From NCBI RefSeq assembly GCF_001484605.1, contig NZ_CP013747.1:3410001-3474000 (forward strand): a DNA stretch of 64,000 nucleotides, in the 5' to 3' direction. The notes beneath the pieces are model-generated. The model made no database searches, was not told the origin of the DNA, and saw only the letters and a program-made list of their open reading frames with translations. The first letter of the stretch is position 1, and each line of letters starts with the position of its first letter. Source of the stretch: Pseudarthrobacter sulfonivorans (GTDB lineage: Bacteria; Actinomycetota; Actinomycetes; Actinomycetales; Micrococcaceae). The translations under genes and the position numbers were made by a program. Positions 47,834 to 60,455 of this stretch are shown piece by piece.

Positions 47834-48829
47834 TTAGGGCTCGGGGGACCTGTCTGTGAACTCCACGAAAGTTGCCTCGTCCGGGTTCTCGGGGGCGGCA
47901 TAGATAGTGACTGCCTGGTCTCCGCCTTGCGGCCTGGCGCGGGCGGTGACGGTGCCGGTACGAGCTTGGTTAAGGATGCTGACGACGCGTTCAGAGACAG
48001 CGGCCAGCGTTCGTGGCGTGAGGTTTTGACGCCGGTCATCAAGGAGTTGAACCGTGACCCCGCGTTGGCGTGCCCTTCGGGCAGCTTCAACCACTTCTGC
48101 CGTCGCCAGGACACGGCCGCGAATCTCATCACGGAACTGGGCCTCCGCGAGTTGGAACTCAATCCGGTGGATTTCCGTGATGTCATGGTTCGCATCCGCG
48201 ATTTGGCCCAGGGCTGGACCGGCGACTGTTCGGACATGCTCCAGCCAATTTGTTCGGGCCACATGCAGAGCCTGTTCGGCTGCGAACCAGTCGGCGGCAG
48301 CTTCGGCGTCGGCCCGGTATTGGCCTACCTTGCGGTCATTGGTGCGCAGCAGATGCCCAATACCTGTACTGACGGTTACCCACCCGACCGTGGCGATGTT
48401 CAGCATTAGACCGCCAACGAATCCCATGGTGGTTTGCGAGGCCCATAGGGTGTTCAGAACGACGGAGAGCAGTACCCCGATCCATGACAGCAGCACTTGC
48501 CCACGGATGTTGATAGCCACGAGCACGGTGTATGTCGCGGCAAGGTGCCACGAAGCATACCCCGGCCACCTGTCCGTGGGCAGGACACTGGTGATGAGGA
48601 GGGTGAGTGCCGTGACTGCCATGAGCACAAAGACGGTGGCAGGCAGGGGCAACCGGCCCGAACAGGGCCTGAGGACGACGACGACGGCAATGAGATAGAT
48701 TGCCATGGCCAACAGCACGGGCCATACCGCGGACACCATGTCCAAAGAAAGCAAACCCAGTGCTATGTGCACGGCGACGAACGCGGCACATAAGGCCGCC
48801 ATGACTTTGGTGGATATGGCGCGAATCAT
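47834..48829 (-). CDS. Degenerate histidine-kinase-like membrane protein
   Basis: A 331-residue protein with about six membrane helices in the first 160 residues and a cytoplasmic part with a helical stretch (WFAAEQALHVARTNWLEHVR) and a C-terminal segment reminiscent of an HATPase N box (TLAAVSERVVSILNQARTGT, then ARPQGGDQAVTIYAAPENPD). No phosphoacceptor His and no DxGxG ATP-binding motif are visible. Its start overlaps the end of the histidine kinase gene by 4 bp. It may be a pseudo-kinase that modulates the neighbouring kinase; that role is inference. Confidence 0.6.
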   Translation of the reverse strand: MIRAISTKVMAALCAAFVAVHIALGLLSLDMVSAVWPVLLAMAIYLIAVVVVLRPCSGRLPLPATVFVLMAVTALTLLITSVLPTDRWPGYASWHLAATYTVLVAINIRGQVLLSWIGVLLSVVLNTLWASQTTMGFVGGLMLNIATVGWVTVSTGIGHLLRTNDRKVGQYRADAEAAADWFAAEQALHVARTNWLEHVRTVAGPALGQIADANHDITEIHRIEFQLAEAQFRDEIRGRVLATAEVVEAARRARQRGVTVQLLDDRRQNLTPRTLAAVSERVVSILNQARTGTVTARARPQGGDQAVTIYAAPENPDEATFVEFTDRSPEP

Positions 48830-50031
48830 GGTTCCACTCCTTCCCAGCCAAGCCGGACCTCGGTGCCGGCGCGGGGAGCGGTGATGATTTTCGCTGTGCC
48901 GCCAACAGCTTCCATCCGCCCGACAATTGAGACCTTTATCCCGAGGCGACGGTCTGAAACCGAGCCCGGATCAAAACCGGACCCGGTGTCTTTGATGGAA
49001 ACCCTCAGTTTCGCGCGCCCGTCAGTACGGTTTCCGGTGATGCTGACGTCGCAGCGGTTAGCCCCGGAGTGCCGAGCTGCATTCTGCACAGCTTCCGTTG
49101 TCGCCTCGAGGACAGCCCTCACGACGTCGGCTGGCAGGAGCAGGTGCTTCGGAGACTCGCAAGTGACGCTCGCGATCGCACCTGCCGTACCCGACCCAAC
49201 AGTAAAGCGGATCCGGGCAGCAATCTCGGCAACCGCGGCAGGGGTTGATTCTGAAGCTTCCGTCGCTTGCTGGTCGAGCCGAGTTAGGGCGCTTTGCGCC
49301 AACCTGGAGCTGGCCGAGCGTTCCTCCGAAGATCCGGCGTGGGCCGCCGTTAGAAGCGCCGTCATCACACTGTCATGTAGCAGGCCGTCAAGGCGTAGCC
49401 GCTCGTTGCTGAGAGCAGTGGCTGACGCAGCTTCCCTGTAATGCTCGATAGCTGTGTCCGCAGCTGTATCTGCGCGCTCCGCTGCCCGGCGGAGTATCCC
49501 GATCGCGACGCAGATGATGAGCCCCAGCACGGTTGCGAATGTAGCGTCCTCGAGGGCAATCAGCCACCCGCCGGATCCGCCCTGTGGCGTTGTTCTTACG
49601 GCGCTGAACACGCCGCCAATAATCAGCGTGTAGAGGCACCCTTTGCGGGCTCCGAAAGCGTACGCAGACCACGCCGCGCCGACATTGATCATGGACCACA
49701 GCCAGGGCGTCCCGAAGTTTTCCGGCACAGACTGCGGCACGGCCAAGGGCCAAAGTGCCAGACCGGCAAGGACCAGCAGTGCGAGCGTGCCAGCTATGGG
49801 CGTCAGCCCACGGCCCCGCACGGAGGCGACTGCGAAAGCCGCCACCAGGGCGAGGAACAGCCACAGGAACATGCTATTCCACCACGTGGCAGCCTGCGGC
49901 GTTTGGCTGGTCACGGAACTGGCAGCCTGAAGCAGCAGCAGAAGCGCGAAGGCTGCGATGCCGCGGGCCATCAATCGGTGGGTGTCTCTGGCCGAAATAC
50001 CAGTTGGGGAGGGGGCGGGCACGAGAGTCAA
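48826..50031 (-). CDS. Sensor histidine kinase
   Basis: A 401-residue membrane kinase. About six helices cover residues 20-190; the HisKA_3-like segment has the phosphoacceptor His in RLRLDGLLHDSVMTALLTAA, followed by an HATPase domain with the N box ATTEAVQNAARHSGANRCDV, the G1 motif IKDTGSGFDP and RLGIKVSIVGRMEAVGGTA. This is the NarL/LuxR-partner type. It overlaps the response regulator gene by 4 bp (50028-50031) and the degenerate kinase gene by 4 bp. The signal is unknown. Confidence 0.88.
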   Translation of the reverse strand: MTLVPAPSPTGISARDTHRLMARGIAAFALLLLLQAASSVTSQTPQAATWWNSMFLWLFLALVAAFAVASVRGRGLTPIAGTLALLVLAGLALWPLAVPQSVPENFGTPWLWSMINVGAAWSAYAFGARKGCLYTLIIGGVFSAVRTTPQGGSGGWLIALEDATFATVLGLIICVAIGILRRAAERADTAADTAIEHYREAASATALSNERLRLDGLLHDSVMTALLTAAHAGSSEERSASSRLAQSALTRLDQQATEASESTPAAVAEIAARIRFTVGSGTAGAIASVTCESPKHLLLPADVVRAVLEATTEAVQNAARHSGANRCDVSITGNRTDGRAKLRVSIKDTGSGFDPGSVSDRRLGIKVSIVGRMEAVGGTAKIITAPRAGTEVRLGWEGVEP

Positions 50032-50699
50032 CGCTTCCGCAAAGGAAGCAGAGGGGGGAGGATGCCGTCTTCGACGGCGCGCCTGTAAAGGTCGATCTTT
50101 GTGGTGGCAGGGCGCCCGGCGGCCTCATATTTTTCGCGGATACGGTCGATGTTCTTCTTCACGGTGCTCTCGGCAATACCCATGCGCCGTGCCACCTGAT
50201 ATTGGCCCAGGCCTGCGGCATAGAGGGCGATGCATTCGCGTTCGCGGTCCGACAGGCTTGCTTCGACGAAGTCTGTGTCGATCTCAATGGCCGCAGCCAA
50301 CTCCTGGCTGTCGATCGTTTCGCCGAGCGCAATGCGCCGGAGCTTGGCAAACGTCTCGGAAATTGGTTCGGACTTCAGGGACACTCCCATAGCTCCGTTC
50401 GCGATGGCGTCCTGAATCTGTCCGATGTTGTCCCCAAGTGTGAAGACAAGGATTCTGTAGCCGGCGGCCGTCAGTTTCGGAACATTGTCACCCGGCTGGG
50501 AGCCGTCAGCAAGGGATAGGTCAAGGGCGACAACATCGCAAATGTCTCGTCCTGCACTAAGAAAGGCATCAACGGTAGGGGCGCCACCAATTACCTGGAC
50601 ATAGGGCGTTTTGCTTTCGGCTTCACGGGTCGCCGAGGCCGCAAACCCGAGCCGGACAGCTTCGTGGTCATCGATAATCCCAGCTCGTACTGTTTCCAT
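50028..50699 (-). CDS. LuxR/NarL-family response regulator
   Basis: A 223-residue DNA-binding response regulator. The receiver domain has acidic IIDDHEAVRLG and the likely phospho-Asp in VVALDLSLADGSQPGDNVPK; the HTH domain shows LSDRERECIALYAAGLGQYQ and RRMGIAESTVKKNIDRIREK. The ATG at 50699 follows GGGGGCAAGG. It heads an operon with the kinase and the degenerate kinase-like gene. The giant surface-protein gene starts 506 bp away on the other strand and is the obvious candidate target. Confidence 0.9.
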   Translation of the reverse strand: METVRAGIIDDHEAVRLGFAASATREAESKTPYVQVIGGAPTVDAFLSAGRDICDVVALDLSLADGSQPGDNVPKLTAAGYRILVFTLGDNIGQIQDAIANGAMGVSLKSEPISETFAKLRRIALGETIDSQELAAAIEIDTDFVEASLSDRERECIALYAAGLGQYQVARRMGIAESTVKKNIDRIREKYEAAGRPATTKIDLYRRAVEDGILPPLLPLRKR

Positions 50700-51205
50700 C
50701 CTTGCCCCCTGTGTCTTCTGGCAGCCTTCGAAGAATTTCAGTTTGGGGTTCCACATGAAATGTTCCAACTGTGACGCGGTTAGTTTCCGGCGCGTCCCGA
50801 AGCTACATGGTGTCCCCACTTCCGGGGACACCGCCGGGATTCATCCTGCTTTTGCTGGTGCCGGGTGTTCGGGCCGGCTTTAGAGTCGAGTAGAACCACT
50901 GAGCTCAGGTAGCGAGCCTGCGGTTGCTACTTCAGTAAAGGCGGGAAATCAGCGGTCATATTGGGGGCCCGCTGGATTTCCGCCGACAAGAGAACACCTG
51001 ACAAAAAATCAATCACCGTATGAATCTTTCGTCACGCAATAGCGCTGGAACAAAAATAGCAAGAAGAAGTTGGTGACAATTTCTGTCACACGCGCCCAGG
51101 AAAGCTCTTTTGGGTAAATCCGACTTATATCGCCGGATGACGTAATTCTTTCTGTTTCTGATATCTTCCATTCGATAGCGCTTCTGCCGCATTTGGGGGA
51201 ACAAC
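50700..51205. other. Divergent control region before the giant surface-protein gene
   Basis: No gene recognised. The right half is AT-richer than the surroundings and carries a perfect inverted repeat GTGACA-N5-TGTCAC at 51073-51089. It should hold the promoters of the regulator operon and the giant gene. Confidence 0.6.
51073..51089. promoter_or_regulatory. Inverted repeat GTGACA-N5-TGTCAC, candidate operator
   Basis: Two exact 6-bp half sites, spacer ATTTC, 117 bases before the start codon of the giant gene. The symmetry suits a dimeric regulator such as the adjacent LuxR-type protein or a Crp-like protein (TGTGA-like halves). Confidence 0.45.
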
Positions 51206-54200
51206 ATGAAACAAGGTCCTGCTTCGAACATGTCCTGGATGGCCCGCCTGAGGCACGCCGTCTCTGTAGGTGTCGCCTCATCACTCCTGGCGGGATACAT
51301 GGTCCTGCTGCCGGCCTCAGTAATCCCAGCAGGTGCGGTGGAACCCCTTCCCTCCCCGTCGGAGTCCTCAACCGCACCCTCAAGCCCCTCGGCGCCGGAA
51401 CCGGCTGCATTGGGCGATGTCTTGCCTGCCTGGACAATGGTTGCGCAGAACCAGAGCGAAACCGATCAACGAATGCGACCCGGCAATTACAGCCCCAAAG
51501 TTTTGTCAGTGCGACTGGCTGATGAAACTGGTTCTCCGGTGGCGGGAGCCACCATTAAGTTCGAAGTCACCGCGGGCGACGCCTTCTTTGACCGGACCAA
51601 CACCACCACCATGGAGACGGCCACCAACGCGGAAGGCGTCGCGTCTGCCAGCAGCCGCTACAGCGAAGCGATGAGCGGCCTCGTTGCGGGCGGGAATTAC
51701 GCGGGCAGCATCACGGTAGAGGCCAGCGTGACTGGCTCCTCCGCATCCTTCACTTTCGACCAGATCCATTCAACGGTTGCAGAAAGGCTGGAATACGTTG
51801 CAGGCCGCGACCAGGAGCTTCACAGCCCCTACGAAGTAATAAAGCCGCTCTCAGTTCGCGCGGTCGACGGCGACGGTCATCCGGTTCCTGACACCCAGAT
51901 TGAGTTTGTCGCCAAGGACGGCACAGCAAATTTCGCCTGGTCATATCCCACCGCAACGATCACGACCAATCAGGATGGCGTGGCCTCCACAAGTGAGGGC
52001 GGAAACTACTACCAGGTGCTCCGATCCGGACTCGGCCCTGATGGGTATGCCGTGGCTGCAGAAATTGACGCGAGGCTCGCGGGCGCTGACGCCGTTCCGT
52101 TTTCCATCCCGTTGGCTCCCGTCGAGAGCATAGAAATTCTTACCGGTGACAACCAGGAAGTAGCAGGGGAAGACTTTTATCAACCGCTCCAAGCAGTTCT
52201 TCGAGATATCCACGGCCAGGCCTTGGCCTACAGGAAAACTACGTTTCTGGTAACCGGTGAAGCCAGCTTCACGAACACAGGTGAGGCCCAGAAGGCCTTT
52301 GATACCTCCAGCCAGTGGGATGGCACCGTCACCGTGCCGAGGTACACGCTCCGCGCAAATGCAGGCCACGCGGCGTCGGGCACGTCCCTTACCGTTGGCA
52401 CCTCGAGCGGCGGCAAGACCACAGACTTCCACCTCAAGGTTGCCAAGCAGCCCAGGGCATGGAACCTGACGCAGGAATACGGTGGAGGGCAGACCACTGC
52501 CATCGGCGGAGCTTTTGCTTCGCCGCTCGGTGTCTACGCCCGGGACGAACAAGGCCGGGCGGCGGGGTATGCGCCCGTGACTTTCGGCATCGTCAACGGC
52601 GGCGGTGCCTACTTTGAAGGGCCGAATGCTGCCCGGGTCACGTCCCTGACGGTCGAGGCGGACCGTTACGGTCGGGCTGCCTCCCCGGTCCTCTGGAGCG
52701 GGGAGGCAGTGGGTGGGTTTAGCGTCAAAGCAACCACGCCCGATTTCGCGGGCGAACTCGTCTTCGACCTCGACGTGGTGGGGCAGCCGACGTCGATCCG
52801 GATTTATCCAGAGACCGGCACCACGGCGTACCCCGACTCGAGCCTCGGCTGGCCTTACGCCGTTGTCACCGACAGCGACGGACGGCCCGTGGGCAACCAG
52901 ACGGTCACCTTCACGGTCGAGAGCGGCGCGATCGGGATTGGCCGCGGCACCGACGGCAGTGAGAAGAGCCGCACGGGCATCACCGACTCCAACGGCGTTG
53001 CCTACGCAGGGGATGCTCTTTACACGGGCGCCGGGAAGACTTCCTACGGCCCGGGTGCCCTCAGCGCGACCCTTGCAGGCGGGCAGCGGGCTGACGCGGC
53101 GTACACGGTTGTGAGCTATCCGGCCGTCAAGCAGCTGCTGGTGGTTGGCGGCGAAGGCCTCTCGGCGAAGCCGGGTGAAATGTTTGGGCCGGTAGACATC
53201 CTTGCCGACAGCCAGACCTGGCCTTACGCCGGCTACACCGACGTGACATTTGAGCTTGGCGGAAGCACGGGAAGCTATTTTGTGGACGGACAGGGCCAGC
53301 GGGTGGACGGGCCTGTGACTGTCACCGCGTCGCGCTACGGTTACGCGCAGGCCCCCACCATCGTGGCCGGCGACACACCCGGAAGTGTCAACCTGAAAGT
53401 ATCCGCACCAAGCGTTCCCGACGTACAGGTCAATCTTTCAGTCAGTGGCGGAGCCAGCAGCATCACCAAGATTTCGCAGGATGGCCTTCAGGCACTTCCC
53501 GAGGACAGCTTTGGCTATCTCAGTGTCCGTGTCCAGGATGAAGCCGGTAACCCCGTCAGCAACGAGGAAGTCACCTTCACTGTCCGGGAAGGCGGCGCTT
53601 CATTCTCCGGGTACTGGTGGGGTTACTGCGGTGGTCAGATAAGCGGCAACAAAACCCTAACCGTAAGGAGCGATGCCTTCGGGCAGGCATATACGTCCGT
53701 GGCGCTTTGCGCTGAAGCTGGCCCTGAAGCCCCGGGCGACGTCATCGTCGATGTCGCCGCGGCTGGGATACAGGCCGAATCCTTCACCTTCAAAGTGAAA
53801 GCGTTCCCGGCGGCCGCTGTCCTGGAGACCTGGGCCCAAATCGCACCCCACATTAAGACCGGCGACGACCTCTATGGTTTCCCCTATGCCTACGCACGTG
53901 ACAGCAGCGGCAATGCTGCAGGCTATGCCCAGGTCACCTTTGCCATCGAAGGAGAAACCGAGGCCCGGTTCAAGATCACCGACCCCGCAACGGGGGCGGT
54001 CAGCCTGGAGCAGCAGGTAGTCCTCACAGCAGACCGGTGGGGCAACCTGCCCTCACCGACGATCGCCGCAGGCGAAGTCAGGGGTACGTTCTCGGTTACA
54101 GCCAAGAGCGGCGAATCCAATGAGCTGCGCTGGGACGGCCTTCGCGTTGTTGGTCCGGTCGCTACCGTCTCGGCCATAGCCGGTGACGGTCAAAAGCTCT

Positions 54201-57200
54201 ACCCCAACAATTACACGTCCGGGTTGCGCATAGTGGCCAAGGATTCGGACGGGTACGCCGTTCCAAACCAGGCGGTGACCTTCAGGTTGCCACCGGAGCT
54301 CGAACACCGGTTCGCTTACACCTGGTCCTCCGAAGTTTCGGCTATGACAGACGCCAACGGCGAAGCGGCACCGGGATACTCCCACTACGCCGGCGTCTAT
54401 GTGGGTAACACCACCGGGCCATTCAACGTGACTGTGGAGCACAGCGGCCAGATCTATACGCCCTTCAGCCTTGAAGCCCTTGCATTCCCGGCTGCGAACG
54501 TGCTGGACAATCCCGGTGGAGGAAACCAGAACGTTCAACCAAACGCTGGCTTCCCTTCACGGCTCTCAGCCCGGGTCTCCAACGCGGATGTGGCCGTAGG
54601 CATCCCCAATGTTCCCGTCACCTGGGCCATTGAAGGGTCTACAGACGCGTACTTCGTCCTCGACAATGGCGCGCGAACCTCCTCGGCCGTCGTTACATCG
54701 GACGCGGCAGGATACGTGGTTTCACCCGCACTCTTCGCGGGAAGCCAAGGCGGAAGCTTCATGGTTACCGCAACCGCCGAGGGAATATCTCCGGCAGTCT
54801 TTGACATGGCCGTCCTCAGCTCCGCGCGAATCATGGAAAAAATCTCGGGCGATGGCCAGGTTGTGAAGGTCGGCAAGACTTTTGATCCGGTACAGGTAGT
54901 TGTTAAGGACGACGCCGGAAATCCCGTAGCCAACCAACGCGTCCGTTTCACAGCCGAGACACCCAGCCGGGCGAACTTCGCGGGAACCTTCAGGACCTAC
55001 GCCATCACCGACAGCCAGGGGCGGGCGAGCTCCGGTGCGATCACCGCAGGAACCGAAACGGGCGGAGCCACCATAACGGCGGCGTCTGGAACTTTGGCAC
55101 CGCAGACCTTTACGCTGACCACAGAGCCGCTGGCGACGCCAGCGGTCCTGACCGAAGCCACGGGTAACCAACAATCAGCGACCGCACGTGGTGTTTTCCC
55201 GGTCCCGCTGGGCATTCGTGCCCTGGACGCCGAGGGCAACCCGACTGAGCAGGTCAGCGTCACCTTCACCGTCACCGACTCGAGCGGGTCAAGCTTCGCC
55301 GACGGTTCTGTAACCTACACGGGGACGACGAATGCGGACGGCTGGATCTATTCGCCCTTGGTAAATGCTGGGGCGTCGGCCGGCACGTTGTCGATTATTG
55401 CCACAGCAGACGGTGTTGCTCCGTTCGCCTACGACCTCACGATTAAAGATCCCAATACGGCACCGCAGCTTGAGCTGTCCACTTCAGCCGCCGCCGTCGA
55501 GGTTGGCAAGGCGGTGACGTACACGCTCGACGCGACCGATGCTGATGGTGATGCACTTTCCTACACCATCGACTTCGGCGACGGCGCGGGCGTCCAGGGC
55601 AGTTATCCAAGCAGCCAGACGATCAGCCACGCCTACACCCAGGCCGGCTCTTACCTGGTGCACGCCACCGTACGGGACGCTGCCGGGTCAACTTCCACGA
55701 CGGCAAGGATCAGCGCAGTCCTGCCGGAGCCTCTGCTAGCCGACGCCGGCGAGCCGCAACAGGCCGAGACCGGCCAGCCGTTGGTGTTTGATGCGGGCCG
55801 CTCCAAGCCACTGGCATTGATTCACGAATTCAACTGGGACTTTGGCGACGGCAGTACAGGTAGCGGATTGAGGGCCCAGCACGTGTACTCAGCAGCCGGC
55901 GAGTTCGTTGTCTCGCTGACTGTCCGTAACGGCAGCGAGGCAGCCACTTCCTCCACGACGGTCAGAGTCGAACAGGCCAGTGTCCTGCCAGGGCTCGCGG
56001 TGACGGTGAAGTCGGGCGCCAGCCTCCTGTCCGGGGCCGTCGTGACCACCAACCTTTCCGACGGCCGGCGCGTTACCGCCACCTCCGGTACGGACGGCAT
56101 CGCCGTCCTTCGAGGATTGCCCGACGGCGGGCACAGTGTCTTCGTGTCCGCCGGCGGCCACCTTCCCCTTGTGGTGCAGGCGGTTGTTAGCGGCGAAACA
56201 GGCGCCGTAGAGGCGGTACTGACAACCGGGGATGTCGGTTCTGCAATTCTTGATACGCGCACGTTGACCATCGGTGAAATAACGGACCTCGGTATCGACC
56301 CCGCGGCGCCTGAGAACCAGCAGGTGTTCGAATCTGAAATCCACCTTGCCGTCAACGGCGAACAAGCTGCCGAGGTGCCACCACTTCAGGTCTATTGGAA
56401 CCTCGACGACCAGGTCGGCGTCCGAAGCGATCCAACGCAGCCGGTCTACTGGGTCAACTCCAACACGACCGGTATCACAATCGGAAACTACGATTTCGCT
56501 CCGAGCACCACGACTGTTGGCGGCCAGCGCATCGTGCAGTGGCTGATTGTGCCGACACGTGGCAGCTACCTCAAGGAGTTCTTTGAGGCCCGCCTCGTTG
56601 TCCAGAACCTTTCGGACGCGGCGTTCACCTTCACCAAGGGACAGGCTGAAATTGCCCTGCCCGCAGGGATCAGCCTTGCCCCCACGTCGGCCCTGCAGAC
56701 TGCCCTCGTCCCGGCAGGGGACATCCCGGGCGGCGAAAGCACCACAATCTACTGGACCCTCAGGGGTGACACCGAAGGCGAATACAACATCGGTGCTACT
56801 TACACGGGTGTGCTGGAGCCTGTAGGTACGCCGGTCCGCCTCGAGGCCAGCACGGAAAGGCCCTTGAAGGTTTGGGGCGGCTCCGCACTGGAGATGGAAG
56901 TGATCGCCGATCCGTCGGCGGAAGAACTTCACCCGTTCCGCGTCACGGTGAAGCTGCGCAACCAAACGCCGGAGGGCTCCGGGATACCGGTCTACAACCC
57001 GGCGTTCGAGGTTTCCGCGGGCACGAATTACCTTCTGGCTCCTGATGTCAGCTACAAGATGTCAGCGGCCGCGCTCCTGCCTGGTGAGGTGCTGGAGAAG
57101 GACTTTATTGTCTACTCGCGCGGCTCAGGAGACGTTGGGGTTGACGATGACGACCTTCGGAAGAGCTTCATAGTCTCAACCGGTGGAAGCGTGGAGGTTG

Positions 57201-59155
57201 ACTACGCACCCGTAGCGACGCACTCGTCCCGAACGCCGAATTCAAACGTGGATGGCATATGGGGAGGCCTCTGGTTTGACAGGGAGCTGACCATCGGCTG
57301 GCAACGCAGCACGGGCGCCGCTCAATACTTCCTGTACTCCCGCAACAACTTGGAGTCCGGGGAGTGGAAGCTGGTGACCGAGGGGCAATTTTCGGAGCGC
57401 GCCCTTGTACGCCAGTTGGCTGCCGCCAGCAGCCAACTGGGGAAATACTATGCAGTGGTTACCCAGTTGGAAAACGGCGACGTGACACCCATGCACAGGG
57501 TCCTCGAGATGCCGGTGACTCCTCCGCCGCATACTCCCGAGACAGACCCCGACCTCCGCATTTCTGACAGCACAGCGGATTTACAATGCCAGGATGTCCT
57601 GTTTATAGGTGCAGCTGGTTCCGGCGAAACGTTGCTGGGATCGGCCCTGAAGGATGTGGCAAAAGATCTGGTGAAGCTACGCGACTCCGGCAGAACATAT
57701 GAGGCGGTTCGTGTTGACTACCCTGCCGCGGCGGTCCCGCTTGTCGGCGGCGACATAACTGTCGACGCCCCAGATTACATGAGCAGCATTGAATCTGGGG
57801 TGATCGAACTCAAGCGCTTCCTGGCTAATCGCCAAGAAAAGAACTGTGTGAACGAAAAGTATGTTCTGGGCGGCTATTCTCAGGGCGGCATCGTTGTCTC
57901 ACGTGCCATTTCCGAGTCTCCCGGCTTGGTTCCATCGAGCAAAGTCGCTGGGGTCTTCCTCCTCGCGAACGGCGCCAACAGCCCATTCATTGGAGGGCGC
58001 ACGTGGGGTACGGCCCAATACAAGTACGGGATTGCACGGCCTGTTTGGCAGCCGGAAGTTCCCATCCACCTTGCTGATCACACATTTTCTCTGTGCGATG
58101 AGAACGACTTGGTCTGCGACACCGTCGCAACTGTTGGAGAGGCTGCCCTTGAACGTGACGGCACTGAAATCACCAAGGGACTGGGCGTGCACACGAGTTA
58201 CAAGGAAAGGCGAGAAACGGAACTGCTGAAATTTGCGAGTCTGATGCGTGATCGGCTCATGAGTGTTGCAATTCCGGAGGCTGACCCGCACAGGATTGAA
58301 GCGGCAGGCAATGGCCAATTTCAGACTCAATTCACCACCAAAACGCTTGAGGGAGCCACGGCACTTTGGGAACTCGCTGGCGGGCCTTTGCCTGCTGGTG
58401 TTGAGCTTAAGGTCACTCCCGAAGGAGCCGTCAGCGGGCGTGTACCGCCGGGCTTCTGGAAGTTCCAGGTGTCAGTGATCGGCCACGCGTGGCAGGGACA
58501 GAGGTTCCTCACCCTTGAAGTCCGTGCTGGCTGGGCTGCGGCTGTAGCGCAGATCATCCCGGAGACGGTCGTTGCCCCCGAGAACCTGCTCAAGCCGTAC
58601 GCGGTGAGGCTGCTGGACAGCGCCGGTAAGGCTGTCGCCCGCGCAGAAGTGGAGTTCCGGATCGAGGGGCCGGCATCCTTCACCGGAGGCTCGCAGACAT
58701 ACAAGGTCCTGAGTGATGCGCAGGGGTACGCCGAGTCGGTTATCCCCGTTCCTACAGCCGAGAGCGGGACCGTGACAGCCACCGCGGCGGTTCCAGGTAA
58801 ACCACCTGTGGTTCTCCAGTCCCAGGTGGTGGTTCCCCAGGTCCTTCCGGACGGGATTAGTGCTGTTGTAACCCCGAAATTCCTATCTGGAAAGGTGATC
58901 CTGGAAGTCAGGGTGTCGAACTCCTCATCCGAGGTCAAATCGCTTTCACTGGACAGTCTTTTTGGGGCAAAAAACCTCGGAGACATTGCACCGGGCTCAT
59001 CCAGCAGTTACGAATTTGAGACCGGTCAGAAGCAGATCCCGCAGGGATCCGTTCGCGTGACAGCGGTGGGGGCATCGTTGTCGGGATCGCAGGTCATGAA
59101 CTATGGCGCCTACAACACAGGCACGGAAAAGAAGCAGGCAAAGGCGACTTCATAA
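51206..59155 (+). CDS. Giant secreted Big_1/PKD protein with embedded cutinase-like esterase
   Basis: A 2649-residue exported protein. The signal peptide has helix VASSLLAGYMVLLPASVIPA and is followed by a Ser/Pro-rich linker. Residues about 75-1420 hold roughly 12 Big_1-like Ig domains, each with a VRVQDEAGNPVSNEEVTF-type strand. Two PKD domains (about 1420-1595; FGDG motifs) and a carboxypeptidase-regulatory-like domain follow. A cutinase-like domain at about 2125-2360 has the nucleophile S2225 in GGYSQGG, D2301 in NDLVC and H2329 in GVHTSY. After it come a putative-Ig-like and a last Big_1 domain near 2470. GGGGGAAC precedes the ATG. There is no LPxTG-type anchor or C-terminal helix, so attachment is unclear. 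Confidence 0.88.
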   Translation: MKQGPASNMSWMARLRHAVSVGVASSLLAGYMVLLPASVIPAGAVEPLPSPSESSTAPSSPSAPEPAALGDVLPAWTMVAQNQSETDQRMRPGNYSPKVLSVRLADETGSPVAGATIKFEVTAGDAFFDRTNTTTMETATNAEGVASASSRYSEAMSGLVAGGNYAGSITVEASVTGSSASFTFDQIHSTVAERLEYVAGRDQELHSPYEVIKPLSVRAVDGDGHPVPDTQIEFVAKDGTANFAWSYPTATITTNQDGVASTSEGGNYYQVLRSGLGPDGYAVAAEIDARLAGADAVPFSIPLAPVESIEILTGDNQEVAGEDFYQPLQAVLRDIHGQALAYRKTTFLVTGEASFTNTGEAQKAFDTSSQWDGTVTVPRYTLRANAGHAASGTSLTVGTSSGGKTTDFHLKVAKQPRAWNLTQEYGGGQTTAIGGAFASPLGVYARDEQGRAAGYAPVTFGIVNGGGAYFEGPNAARVTSLTVEADRYGRAASPVLWSGEAVGGFSVKATTPDFAGELVFDLDVVGQPTSIRIYPETGTTAYPDSSLGWPYAVVTDSDGRPVGNQTVTFTVESGAIGIGRGTDGSEKSRTGITDSNGVAYAGDALYTGAGKTSYGPGALSATLAGGQRADAAYTVVSYPAVKQLLVVGGEGLSAKPGEMFGPVDILADSQTWPYAGYTDVTFELGGSTGSYFVDGQGQRVDGPVTVTASRYGYAQAPTIVAGDTPGSVNLKVSAPSVPDVQVNLSVSGGASSITKISQDGLQALPEDSFGYLSVRVQDEAGNPVSNEEVTFTVREGGASFSGYWWGYCGGQISGNKTLTVRSDAFGQAYTSVALCAEAGPEAPGDVIVDVAAAGIQAESFTFKVKAFPAAAVLETWAQIAPHIKTGDDLYGFPYAYARDSSGNAAGYAQVTFAIEGETEARFKITDPATGAVSLEQQVVLTADRWGNLPSPTIAAGEVRGTFSVTAKSGESNELRWDGLRVVGPVATVSAIAGDGQKLYPNNYTSGLRIVAKDSDGYAVPNQAVTFRLPPELEHRFAYTWSSEVSAMTDANGEAAPGYSHYAGVYVGNTTGPFNVTVEHSGQIYTPFSLEALAFPAANVLDNPGGGNQNVQPNAGFPSRLSARVSNADVAVGIPNVPVTWAIEGSTDAYFVLDNGARTSSAVVTSDAAGYVVSPALFAGSQGGSFMVTATAEGISPAVFDMAVLSSARIMEKISGDGQVVKVGKTFDPVQVVVKDDAGNPVANQRVRFTAETPSRANFAGTFRTYAITDSQGRASSGAITAGTETGGATITAASGTLAPQTFTLTTEPLATPAVLTEATGNQQSATARGVFPVPLGIRALDAEGNPTEQVSVTFTVTDSSGSSFADGSVTYTGTTNADGWIYSPLVNAGASAGTLSIIATADGVAPFAYDLTIKDPNTAPQLELSTSAAAVEVGKAVTYTLDATDADGDALSYTIDFGDGAGVQGSYPSSQTISHAYTQAGSYLVHATVRDAAGSTSTTARISAVLPEPLLADAGEPQQAETGQPLVFDAGRSKPLALIHEFNWDFGDGSTGSGLRAQHVYSAAGEFVVSLTVRNGSEAATSSTTVRVEQASVLPGLAVTVKSGASLLSGAVVTTNLSDGRRVTATSGTDGIAVLRGLPDGGHSVFVSAGGHLPLVVQAVVSGETGAVEAVLTTGDVGSAILDTRTLTIGEITDLGIDPAAPENQQVFESEIHLAVNGEQAAEVPPLQVYWNLDDQVGVRSDPTQPVYWVNSNTTGITIGNYDFAPSTTTVGGQRIVQWLIVPTRGSYLKEFFEARLVVQNLSDAAFTFTKGQAEIALPAGISLAPTSALQTALVPAGDIPGGESTTIYWTLRGDTEGEYNIGATYTGVLEPVGTPVRLEASTERPLKVWGGSALEMEVIADPSAEELHPFRVTVKLRNQTPEGSGIPVYNPAFEVSAGTNYLLAPDVSYKMSAAALLPGEVLEKDFIVYSRGSGDVGVDDDDLRKSFIVSTGGSVEVDYAPVATHSSRTPNSNVDGIWGGLWFDRELTIGWQRSTGAAQYFLYSRNNLESGEWKLVTEGQFSERALVRQLAAASSQLGKYYAVVTQLENGDVTPMHRVLEMPVTPPPHTPETDPDLRISDSTADLQCQDVLFIGAAGSGETLLGSALKDVAKDLVKLRDSGRTYEAVRVDYPAAAVPLVGGDITVDAPDYMSSIESGVIELKRFLANRQEKNCVNEKYVLGGYSQGGIVVSRAISESPGLVPSSKVAGVFLLANGANSPFIGGRTWGTAQYKYGIARPVWQPEVPIHLADHTFSLCDENDLVCDTVATVGEAALERDGTEITKGLGVHTSYKERRETELLKFASLMRDRLMSVAIPEADPHRIEAAGNGQFQTQFTTKTLEGATALWELAGGPLPAGVELKVTPEGAVSGRVPPGFWKFQVSVIGHAWQGQRFLTLEVRAGWAAAVAQIIPETVVAPENLLKPYAVRLLDSAGKAVARAEVEFRIEGPASFTGGSQTYKVLSDAQGYAESVIPVPTAESGTVTATAAVPGKPPVVLQSQVVVPQVLPDGISAVVTPKFLSGKVILEVRVSNSSSEVKSLSLDSLFGAKNLGDIAPGSSSSYEFETGQKQIPQGSVRVTAVGASLSGSQVMNYGAYNTGTEKKQAKATS

Positions 59156-59473: not shown

Positions 59474-59639
59474 AGCGAGATGTTACGCAGTTCGATGGAT
59501 TTAAGGCGAGATCCCGGCCAGGAATGTGGATCTCCACATGCGGCCCGGACCGCGTCCCGCATCCCGGAAACTCCAAGGGCCCGCGGGTAGAATCGGGGCC
59601 AAGAAGAACGCAGTCGCTTTCCGGAGGTACGGAGAAACA

Positions 59640-60455
59640 ATGTCAGAATGGCTCGACGTCGGCGCGGACAACTACGTGCTGGTTACCGAAGGATCACTGC
59701 TGAACACCGGCCTAATTGTGGGCTCCGAGCGGGCCATGGTGGTCGATACCGGCTGCGGGCCGCGGCAGGGGCGCGAGATCCTGGACGCGGTGCGGGAGAA
59801 GACCTCTTTGCCCCTGGTGGTGGTCAACACGCACGCGCACTACGACCACTTCTTCGGCAACGCTGTCTTCGCATCCGACGGCGCCACCGAGTTCTGGGCA
59901 CACGAAAACTGCGCCCAGGAGATCGACGACCACGGGGACCTGCAGCGCCGGTTCGTGGGAACGCTGGAGCCGGAGATGTCCACCGGCGAGGGTGAGAACG
60001 TGGAACTGGTGGTGCCCAATGCCATCGTCAAGGACCAGCCCGTGCTGGTGGACCTGGGCGGGATCACCGTGACCCTCTTCTACCTGGGCCGCGGCCACAC
60101 CGACGGCGACCTCCTGGTGGGCACCCCCACCACCCTCTTTGTGGGCGACCTCGTGGAGCAGGGCGCGCACCCGTCCTTCGAGGACTCCTACCCGGAGGAA
60201 TGGGCCGACTCCCTGCGCCACATCTCGGCCCTGCGCCACCGGTACGAGTTCCTGATCCCCGGCCACGGCCAGCCCTGCAGCGACCAGTTCGTCAAGACCA
60301 TGGCCAACACCATGACCACAGCCGTGCGCCAGGCCCAGCAGTCCATCCGCGAAACCCCCACCGACGCCACGAAGGCCATCCCTGTGCTGCCCTACGGCCC
60401 GGAGCAGTCACGCTGGTTCATCAAGCGCCTGCAGGAGACACGGCCGCTGCACTGA
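59640..60455 (+). CDS. MBL-fold metallohydrolase
   Basis: A 271-residue metallo-beta-lactamase-fold hydrolase. Metal ligands are visible in NTHAHYDHFFGN (HxHxDH), then His in YLGRGHTDGDLL and Asp in LFVGDLVEQGAHP, and the late His in FLIPGHGQP. The start MSEWLDVGADNYVL follows GGAG at a good distance; an upstream frame to 59526 is not supported. The substrate is not predictable: thioesterases, lactonases and others share the fold. It stands alone. Confidence 0.88.
   Translation: MSEWLDVGADNYVLVTEGSLLNTGLIVGSERAMVVDTGCGPRQGREILDAVREKTSLPLVVVNTHAHYDHFFGNAVFASDGATEFWAHENCAQEIDDHGDLQRRFVGTLEPEMSTGEGENVELVVPNAIVKDQPVLVDLGGITVTLFYLGRGHTDGDLLVGTPTTLFVGDLVEQGAHPSFEDSYPEEWADSLRHISALRHRYEFLIPGHGQPCSDQFVKTMANTMTTAVRQAQQSIRETPTDATKAIPVLPYGPEQSRWFIKRLQETRPLH

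Follow-up and report, generated by a model that had tools for sequence, protein, structure and literature searches.

How does a cutinase, a type of enzyme mainly known as a small free protein, come to lie inside a chain of 2649 residues between arrays of immunoglobulin-like (Ig-like) domains, and where would such a chain place it? The question is raised by a gene of Pseudarthrobacter sulfonivorans, which is located in the stretch of 64,000 nucleotides that was analyzed here (contig NZ_CP013747.1, positions 3,410,001 to 3,474,000; this whole stretch is called the window). The encoded protein probably is a scaffold that is exported and comprises about 20 domains; one of them, a predicted serine esterase with the cutinase/CE5 fold, would lie in a slot behind a conserved mount cassette. 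The domain order, the predicted fold, the conserved triad residues, and the exchange of the enzyme among relatives are the observed part of this reading. The proposed part is the mechanism. Two PKD domains, a carboxypeptidase-regulatory-like domain, an unnamed beta block and an fn3-like domain would together form the mount, and the slot behind it would be occupied by a cutinase, an SGNH/GDSL hydrolase or a GHSLGG alpha/beta hydrolase, depending on the relative. The long Ig-like array would hold the enzyme at a fixed place outside the cell and probably bring it to an insoluble ester substrate, be it plant cutin or suberin, a lipid, or an O-acetylated polysaccharide. The features of the gene and the protein are the following (large proteins of this kind are called giants below):

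51206..59155, + strand: open reading frame of the 2649-residue protein, open for 2649 codons; start common to the relatives P0003 and P0009; GGGGGA run ahead
51206..51337, + strand: signal peptide, residues 1-44 (AGA before V45), assigned by eye; most hydrophobic stretch at residues 27-45
51452..55441, + strand: 12 Big_1-like units, residues 83-1412 (Pfam Big_1; hidden Markov model (HMM) of the protein's own units)
55466..55969, + strand: two PKD domains, residues 1421-1588 (Pfam PKD and PKD_4)
56000..56221, + strand: carboxypeptidase-regulatory-like domain, residues 1599-1672 (Pfam CarboxypepD_reg, E 5.7e-5)
56249..57199, + strand: unnamed beta block, residues 1682-1998, common to 48 giants; all-beta model
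57239..57520, + strand: fn3-like domain, approximately residues 2012-2105, placed by inspection and by the strands of the model
57584..58261, + strand: cutinase domain, residues 2127 to about 2352 (Pfam; structure model and fold match)
57878..57880, + strand: codon of S2225, the predicted nucleophile of GYSQG
58106..58108, + strand: codon of D2301, in CDENDLVC
58190..58192, + strand: codon of H2329, in GVHTSY, outside the stretches aligned with Fusarium cutinase
58565..58801, + strand: 13th Big_1-like unit, residues 2454-2532 (HMM of own units)
58802..59152, + strand: C-terminal part, residues 2533-2649, no anchor recognised

The tandem units were confirmed with Pfam Big_1, which matched with an E value of 2.3e-32, and seven stretches passed individually. 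An HMM with four of the units as seeds recovered the remaining nine at E 1e-6 or better; an HMM of all 13 units matched two stretches in one shuffled copy, with a best E value of 0.015. A preliminary description of the gene had counted about 12 Big_1-like domains, which is right for the N-terminal array and leaves one further unit behind the enzyme. The two PKD domains and the cutinase that it had named were likewise recovered by the Pfam search, so that its description of the domains was correct as far as it went; the carboxypeptidase-regulatory-like domain and the block were not listed in it. The former scored 23.8 bits, below the Pfam cut-off of 32.3, and the same domain was above the cut-off in P0009. 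The block comprises 317 residues without a Pfam match.

The enzyme domain was matched by Pfam Cutinase at residues 2127-2309 (E 2.9e-14, 53.8 bits versus a cut-off of 25.9), and its structure model has a cutinase-type alpha/beta-hydrolase fold. The predicted local distance difference test score (pLDDT), averaged over 10 residues, was 89 at S2225, 72 at D2301 and 83 at H2329. S2225, D2301 and the cysteines C2128, C2214, C2297 and C2304, which are predicted to form disulfides, align with their counterparts in Fusarium cutinase. The triad had been proposed beforehand at exactly these positions; the three residues are indeed present there, and the model, judged from fold and alignment, gave no sign of a non-hydrolase fold. 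S, D, H and the four cysteines are invariant in all 17 cutinase rows that were aligned. This conservation argues against a non-catalytic binding module, which is very improbable, although two SGNH occupants of the same slot lack catalytic residues (see below). Catalysis by the domain and its substrate are predictions. When the PDB was searched with the domain sequence, cutinases and a cutinase-like protein came first and CE5 third, all of them as weak matches. An esterase for sugar O-acetyl groups, instead of cutin or lipid, would have the same fold, as acetylxylan esterases do, and the SGNH families also include sugar O-acetyl esterases. The ranking of the weak matches speaks against this alternative, the fold is indecisive, and we regard it as rather unlikely.

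Does the enzyme occupy a particular place that is shared with other proteins? The block (residues 1680-2000 as query) was found to recur in 48 giants, including the window's own. The candidates for this search had about 0.55 to 1.75 times the length of the window protein, and of these the 7969 with the largest number of shared words were scored; because of these two limits the set leans to close relatives. The block is better conserved than the enzyme, i.e., the identities to the window protein are 88 versus 59% in P0004 and 51 versus 34% in P0010. Behind the block and the fn3-like domain, HMMs detected a cutinase in 17 giants, an SGNH/GDSL hydrolase in 10 and a GHSLGG alpha/beta hydrolase in one. 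Hence a hydrolase follows the block in 28 of the 48, or in 30 if two weaker SGNH cases are counted, and the window protein has the same order, with the cutinase as its esterase-type hydrolase. The seeds of the occupant HMMs were picked by motif, namely seven cutinase proteins (six within the 48), seven SGNH proteins, and the pair P0021 and L061. Non-seed proteins account for 11 of the 17 cutinases and three of the 10 SGNH occupants (P0023, P0026, P0030). Pfam GDSL matched P0022 (E 7.1e-18) and P0019 (2.4e-8), narrowly missed its cut-off in P0027 (1.6e-6), and gave a weak match in P0025 (1.8e-4). P0029 has the same GDSIAWG motif as P0025, yet no Pfam GDSL match; P0030 had none up to E 1e-3 in the scan, and the database's own annotation assigns PF13472 to it. 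Four extra loci were found by other routes: L022 (SGNH), L061 and L079 (both GHSLGG) and L080 (cutinase). The two Bacillota loci L023 and L024 have the block without a hydrolase among the occupants scanned.

Two side observations were made by eye. In P0033 the stretch GTCFGMALTGARF after the block resembles a cysteine-enzyme motif, and P0036 and P0047 have dockerin-like ends.

The relationships of the giants were analyzed with a tree calculated from 52 rows of the block and no other part of the proteins; P0002 was not included. All 17 cutinase rows group in a single clade (100/99), which together with four SGNH rows (P0019, P0023, P0027, L022) makes up a larger clade (100/97). The occupant labels require 10 changes on this tree, compared to a mean of 26.0 after shuffling. 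Many other forks are weak, and 18 of the 49 inner branches are open. In the four SGNH proteins of the larger clade the enzyme directly follows the fn3-like domain, which is also the case for the cutinases; the Pfam enzyme match starts 129 residues after the block in the window protein, 121 in P0019 and 127 in P0027. About 200 residues intervene in other SGNH giants, e.g., P0022. Because the cutinase rows are nested among SGNH members with a nearly equal offset, the enzyme has been exchanged in place among relatives, in one direction or the other. On balance we lean, by a small degree, towards a whole class of giant scaffolds, in which a standard mount presents interchangeable, unrelated ester hydrolases on exchangeable stalks and anchors, and in which lineages could swap chemistry via the slot domain alone.

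Several results weigh against a surface scaffold with an enzyme slot. First, no recognised domain follows the block in 18 of the 48 giants, according to HMM and Pfam scans; six of these have fewer than 430 residues after the block, and P0044 enters an RHS-repeat region. Second, seeds were counted by their own HMMs, i.e., seven of the 10 SGNH occupants, six of the 17 cutinases, and both proteins of the GHSLGG seed pair. Third, in two of 11 SGNH occupants, L022 (residues 1556-1958) and P0023 (residues 2731-3130), GDS is changed to GDG and the His is lost, and judged from these residues they are apparently non-catalytic. Fourth, D2301 of the window protein sits in the stretch with the mean pLDDT of 72. 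Fifth, no anchor was recognised in the window protein, its Arthrobacter relatives, and P0014.

The last point leads to the question of where the protein resides. The ATG at 51206 is preceded by the GGGGGA run at 51195-51200, and the N-terminus matches those of P0003 and P0009. The signal peptide contains the most hydrophobic 19-residue stretch of the whole protein and is followed by a Pro/Ser-rich stretch. The last 100 residues contain no LxxTG-like motif, which bears out the earlier statement that a sorting signal and a membrane tail are missing. Among the relatives, LxxTG with a membrane segment and a basic tail is present at the C-terminus of six of the 48 giants (P0010, P0012, P0013, P0015, P0016, P0038), a C-terminal membrane segment with a basic tail in P0017 and L080, C-terminal CWB2 repeats in L061 and SLH in L023. 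No LxxTG, membrane, CWB2 or SLH anchor was recognised in most of the 48.

The main alternative is that the protein is released, as a secreted esterase of many domains, and that the Ig-like ones keep it on its substrate or in a matrix. The signal peptide with its cleavage-like AGA and the lack of LxxTG and of a C-terminal membrane segment would fit; this applies equally to the Arthrobacter-type proteins P0002-P0009 and P0011 and to P0014, although in P0011 the sequence LSATG occurs 50 residues before the C-terminus, with no membrane segment. However, the same cassette and enzyme occur with LxxTG-like or membrane tails in P0010, P0012, P0013, P0015, P0016, P0017 and L080, and an array of 12 units would be expensive for a free enzyme. 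Release is a serious alternative, but less probable than the main reading.

By analogy to the anchored relatives, the scaffold of the Arthrobacter proteins may be attached to the cell, too. The preliminary description had rightly joined a Big_1 array and a cutinase in one chain, but had overlooked the shared enzyme slot and had placed the enzyme near the tip, a position that the data do not support. The anchors recognised in relatives are all C-terminal, N-terminal anchors not having been searched systematically, and therefore the enzyme would be near the base if the window protein is oriented alike. It would then lie about 300 residues from the base, with the 12 Big_1-like units distal to it. 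The opposite orientation is possible, given the Pro/Ser-rich stretch after the signal peptide.

How widespread is the gene? With residues 2100-2400 as query, nine giants of 2538-4489 residues were found, of which P0002 corresponds to the gene in the window itself, read from a later start. The holders known by name are Arthrobacter sp. P2b, Arthrobacter sp. OV608, Rathayibacter sp. VKM Ac-2754, Pseudarthrobacter sp. PvP022, Arthrobacter sp. UYEF6 and Microbacterium paulum. In the genus, four of 150 genomes (G000, G025, G059, G122) have a matching frame of 2658-2987 residues, and thus the giant gene is accessory; eight further genomes have distant cutinase matches alone, in shorter frames. That the enzyme acts on envelope lipids of the cell that makes it, a role proposed for mycobacterial Rv3802c, is improbable in view of this accessory status; in addition, Arthrobacter is not known to make mycolic acids.

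The spread of enzyme and block was determined in samples from the family, phylum and order of the window genome, with Bacillota genomes lying outside them. The Pfam cutinase model matched in 15 of 197 family genomes at E 1e-3 and was above its cut-off in five; the block as a single sequence was found in one. The block profile matched in 19 of 396 phylum genomes at E 1e-3, in two of them (G000, G455) over most of its length; the other 17 matches span only the first 96 profile positions, were read as the carboxypeptidase-regulatory-like part, and were not counted. In the order sample, three of 396 genomes matched at E 1e-10. Among 5.8 billion proteins, a search with residues 2119-2360 for stand-alone relatives of the cutinase domain scored 1037 candidates, none of which reached E 1e-3. 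A scan of viral contigs for viral carriers confirmed none of 191 stretches.

The genes next to the giant gene are the following:

50028-50831: LuxR-type regulator of a divergent operon upstream
48826-50031: kinase-like (HATPase) protein, same operon
47834-48829: third protein of the operon, no Pfam match
59526-60455: metallo-beta-lactamase-fold protein, downstream

In the window as well as in L019 and L020, the divergent operon is adjacent to the giant gene, and relatives of the regulator (at least 48% identity) occur in 11 of 150 genus genomes. A regulator dedicated to the giant was rejected, because the fetched flanks of eight regulator-bearing genomes hold no giant and because G059 has the giant, with the operon absent from the 5.5 kb upstream. 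Neither the operon nor the metallo-beta-lactamase-fold gene is tied to the giant by the evidence found. In G059 the giant gene is followed by a small frame (L062 14540-15028) whose product has a leader of twin-arginine-like type (SRRKVVLAG).

Taken alone, the window protein combines known parts in a new way. A literature search of titles and abstract openings retrieved no description of a cutinase in an Ig-like array, nor of a conserved mount with exchangeable esterases. If the proposed reading is true, it reveals how bacteria of soil and plants retain an ester-cutting enzyme at a surface, and the chain provides a natural scaffold for the display of such enzymes; cutinases are of interest for the breakdown of polyesters and plastics. 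The block can serve as a marker for finding such giants and comparing their occupants.

Compared with known systems, the domain shares with the cutinase family (PF01083, CE5: the cutinase of Fusarium, the cutinase-like enzymes of Pseudozyma and Cryptococcus, and acetylxylan esterases) the fold, GYSQG, the aspartate in CxxxDxVC, the cysteine pairs and the His. In contrast, CE5/cutinase chains in the PDB have about 190-300 residues, whereas the window domain is part of a chain of 2649. Of the mycobacterial cutinase-like proteins (Rv3802c; Cfp21, Cut4), the matched Rv3802c chain (285 residues, PDB) has neither an Ig-like array nor the cassette. Sortase-anchored Ig-like surface proteins of Gram-positive bacteria likewise begin with a signal peptide and a long Ig-like array, but their sorting signal (LPxTG-like motif, membrane segment and basic tail) is missing in the window protein. 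Invasin/intimin adhesins have an N-terminal outer-membrane barrel; in the window protein no such Pfam domain was found up to E 0.1, and the array starts at residue 83. Cutinases combined with beta-rich modules also exist in the same genus (L007 with PD40, L008 and L009 with VWA plus PKD, L012 with Kelch, L013 with two cutinases, L016 with RCC1); six of the eight other genus cutinase frames scanned (L006, L007, L008, L009, L011, L012, L013, L016) have extra domains or a second cutinase, and two have the cutinase alone. They differ in that the frames have 187-864 residues, contain no Big_1 or block, and have the cutinase N-terminal to the other modules. The giants with SGNH or GHSLGG enzymes (P0019, P0021, P0022, P0027, L022, L061, L079) differ in enzyme family and stalk domains, often with an extra beta domain between the fn3-like domain and the enzyme, but they have the same order of PKD, carboxypeptidase-regulatory-like domain (in most of those scanned), block and fn3-like domain, followed by a hydrolase.
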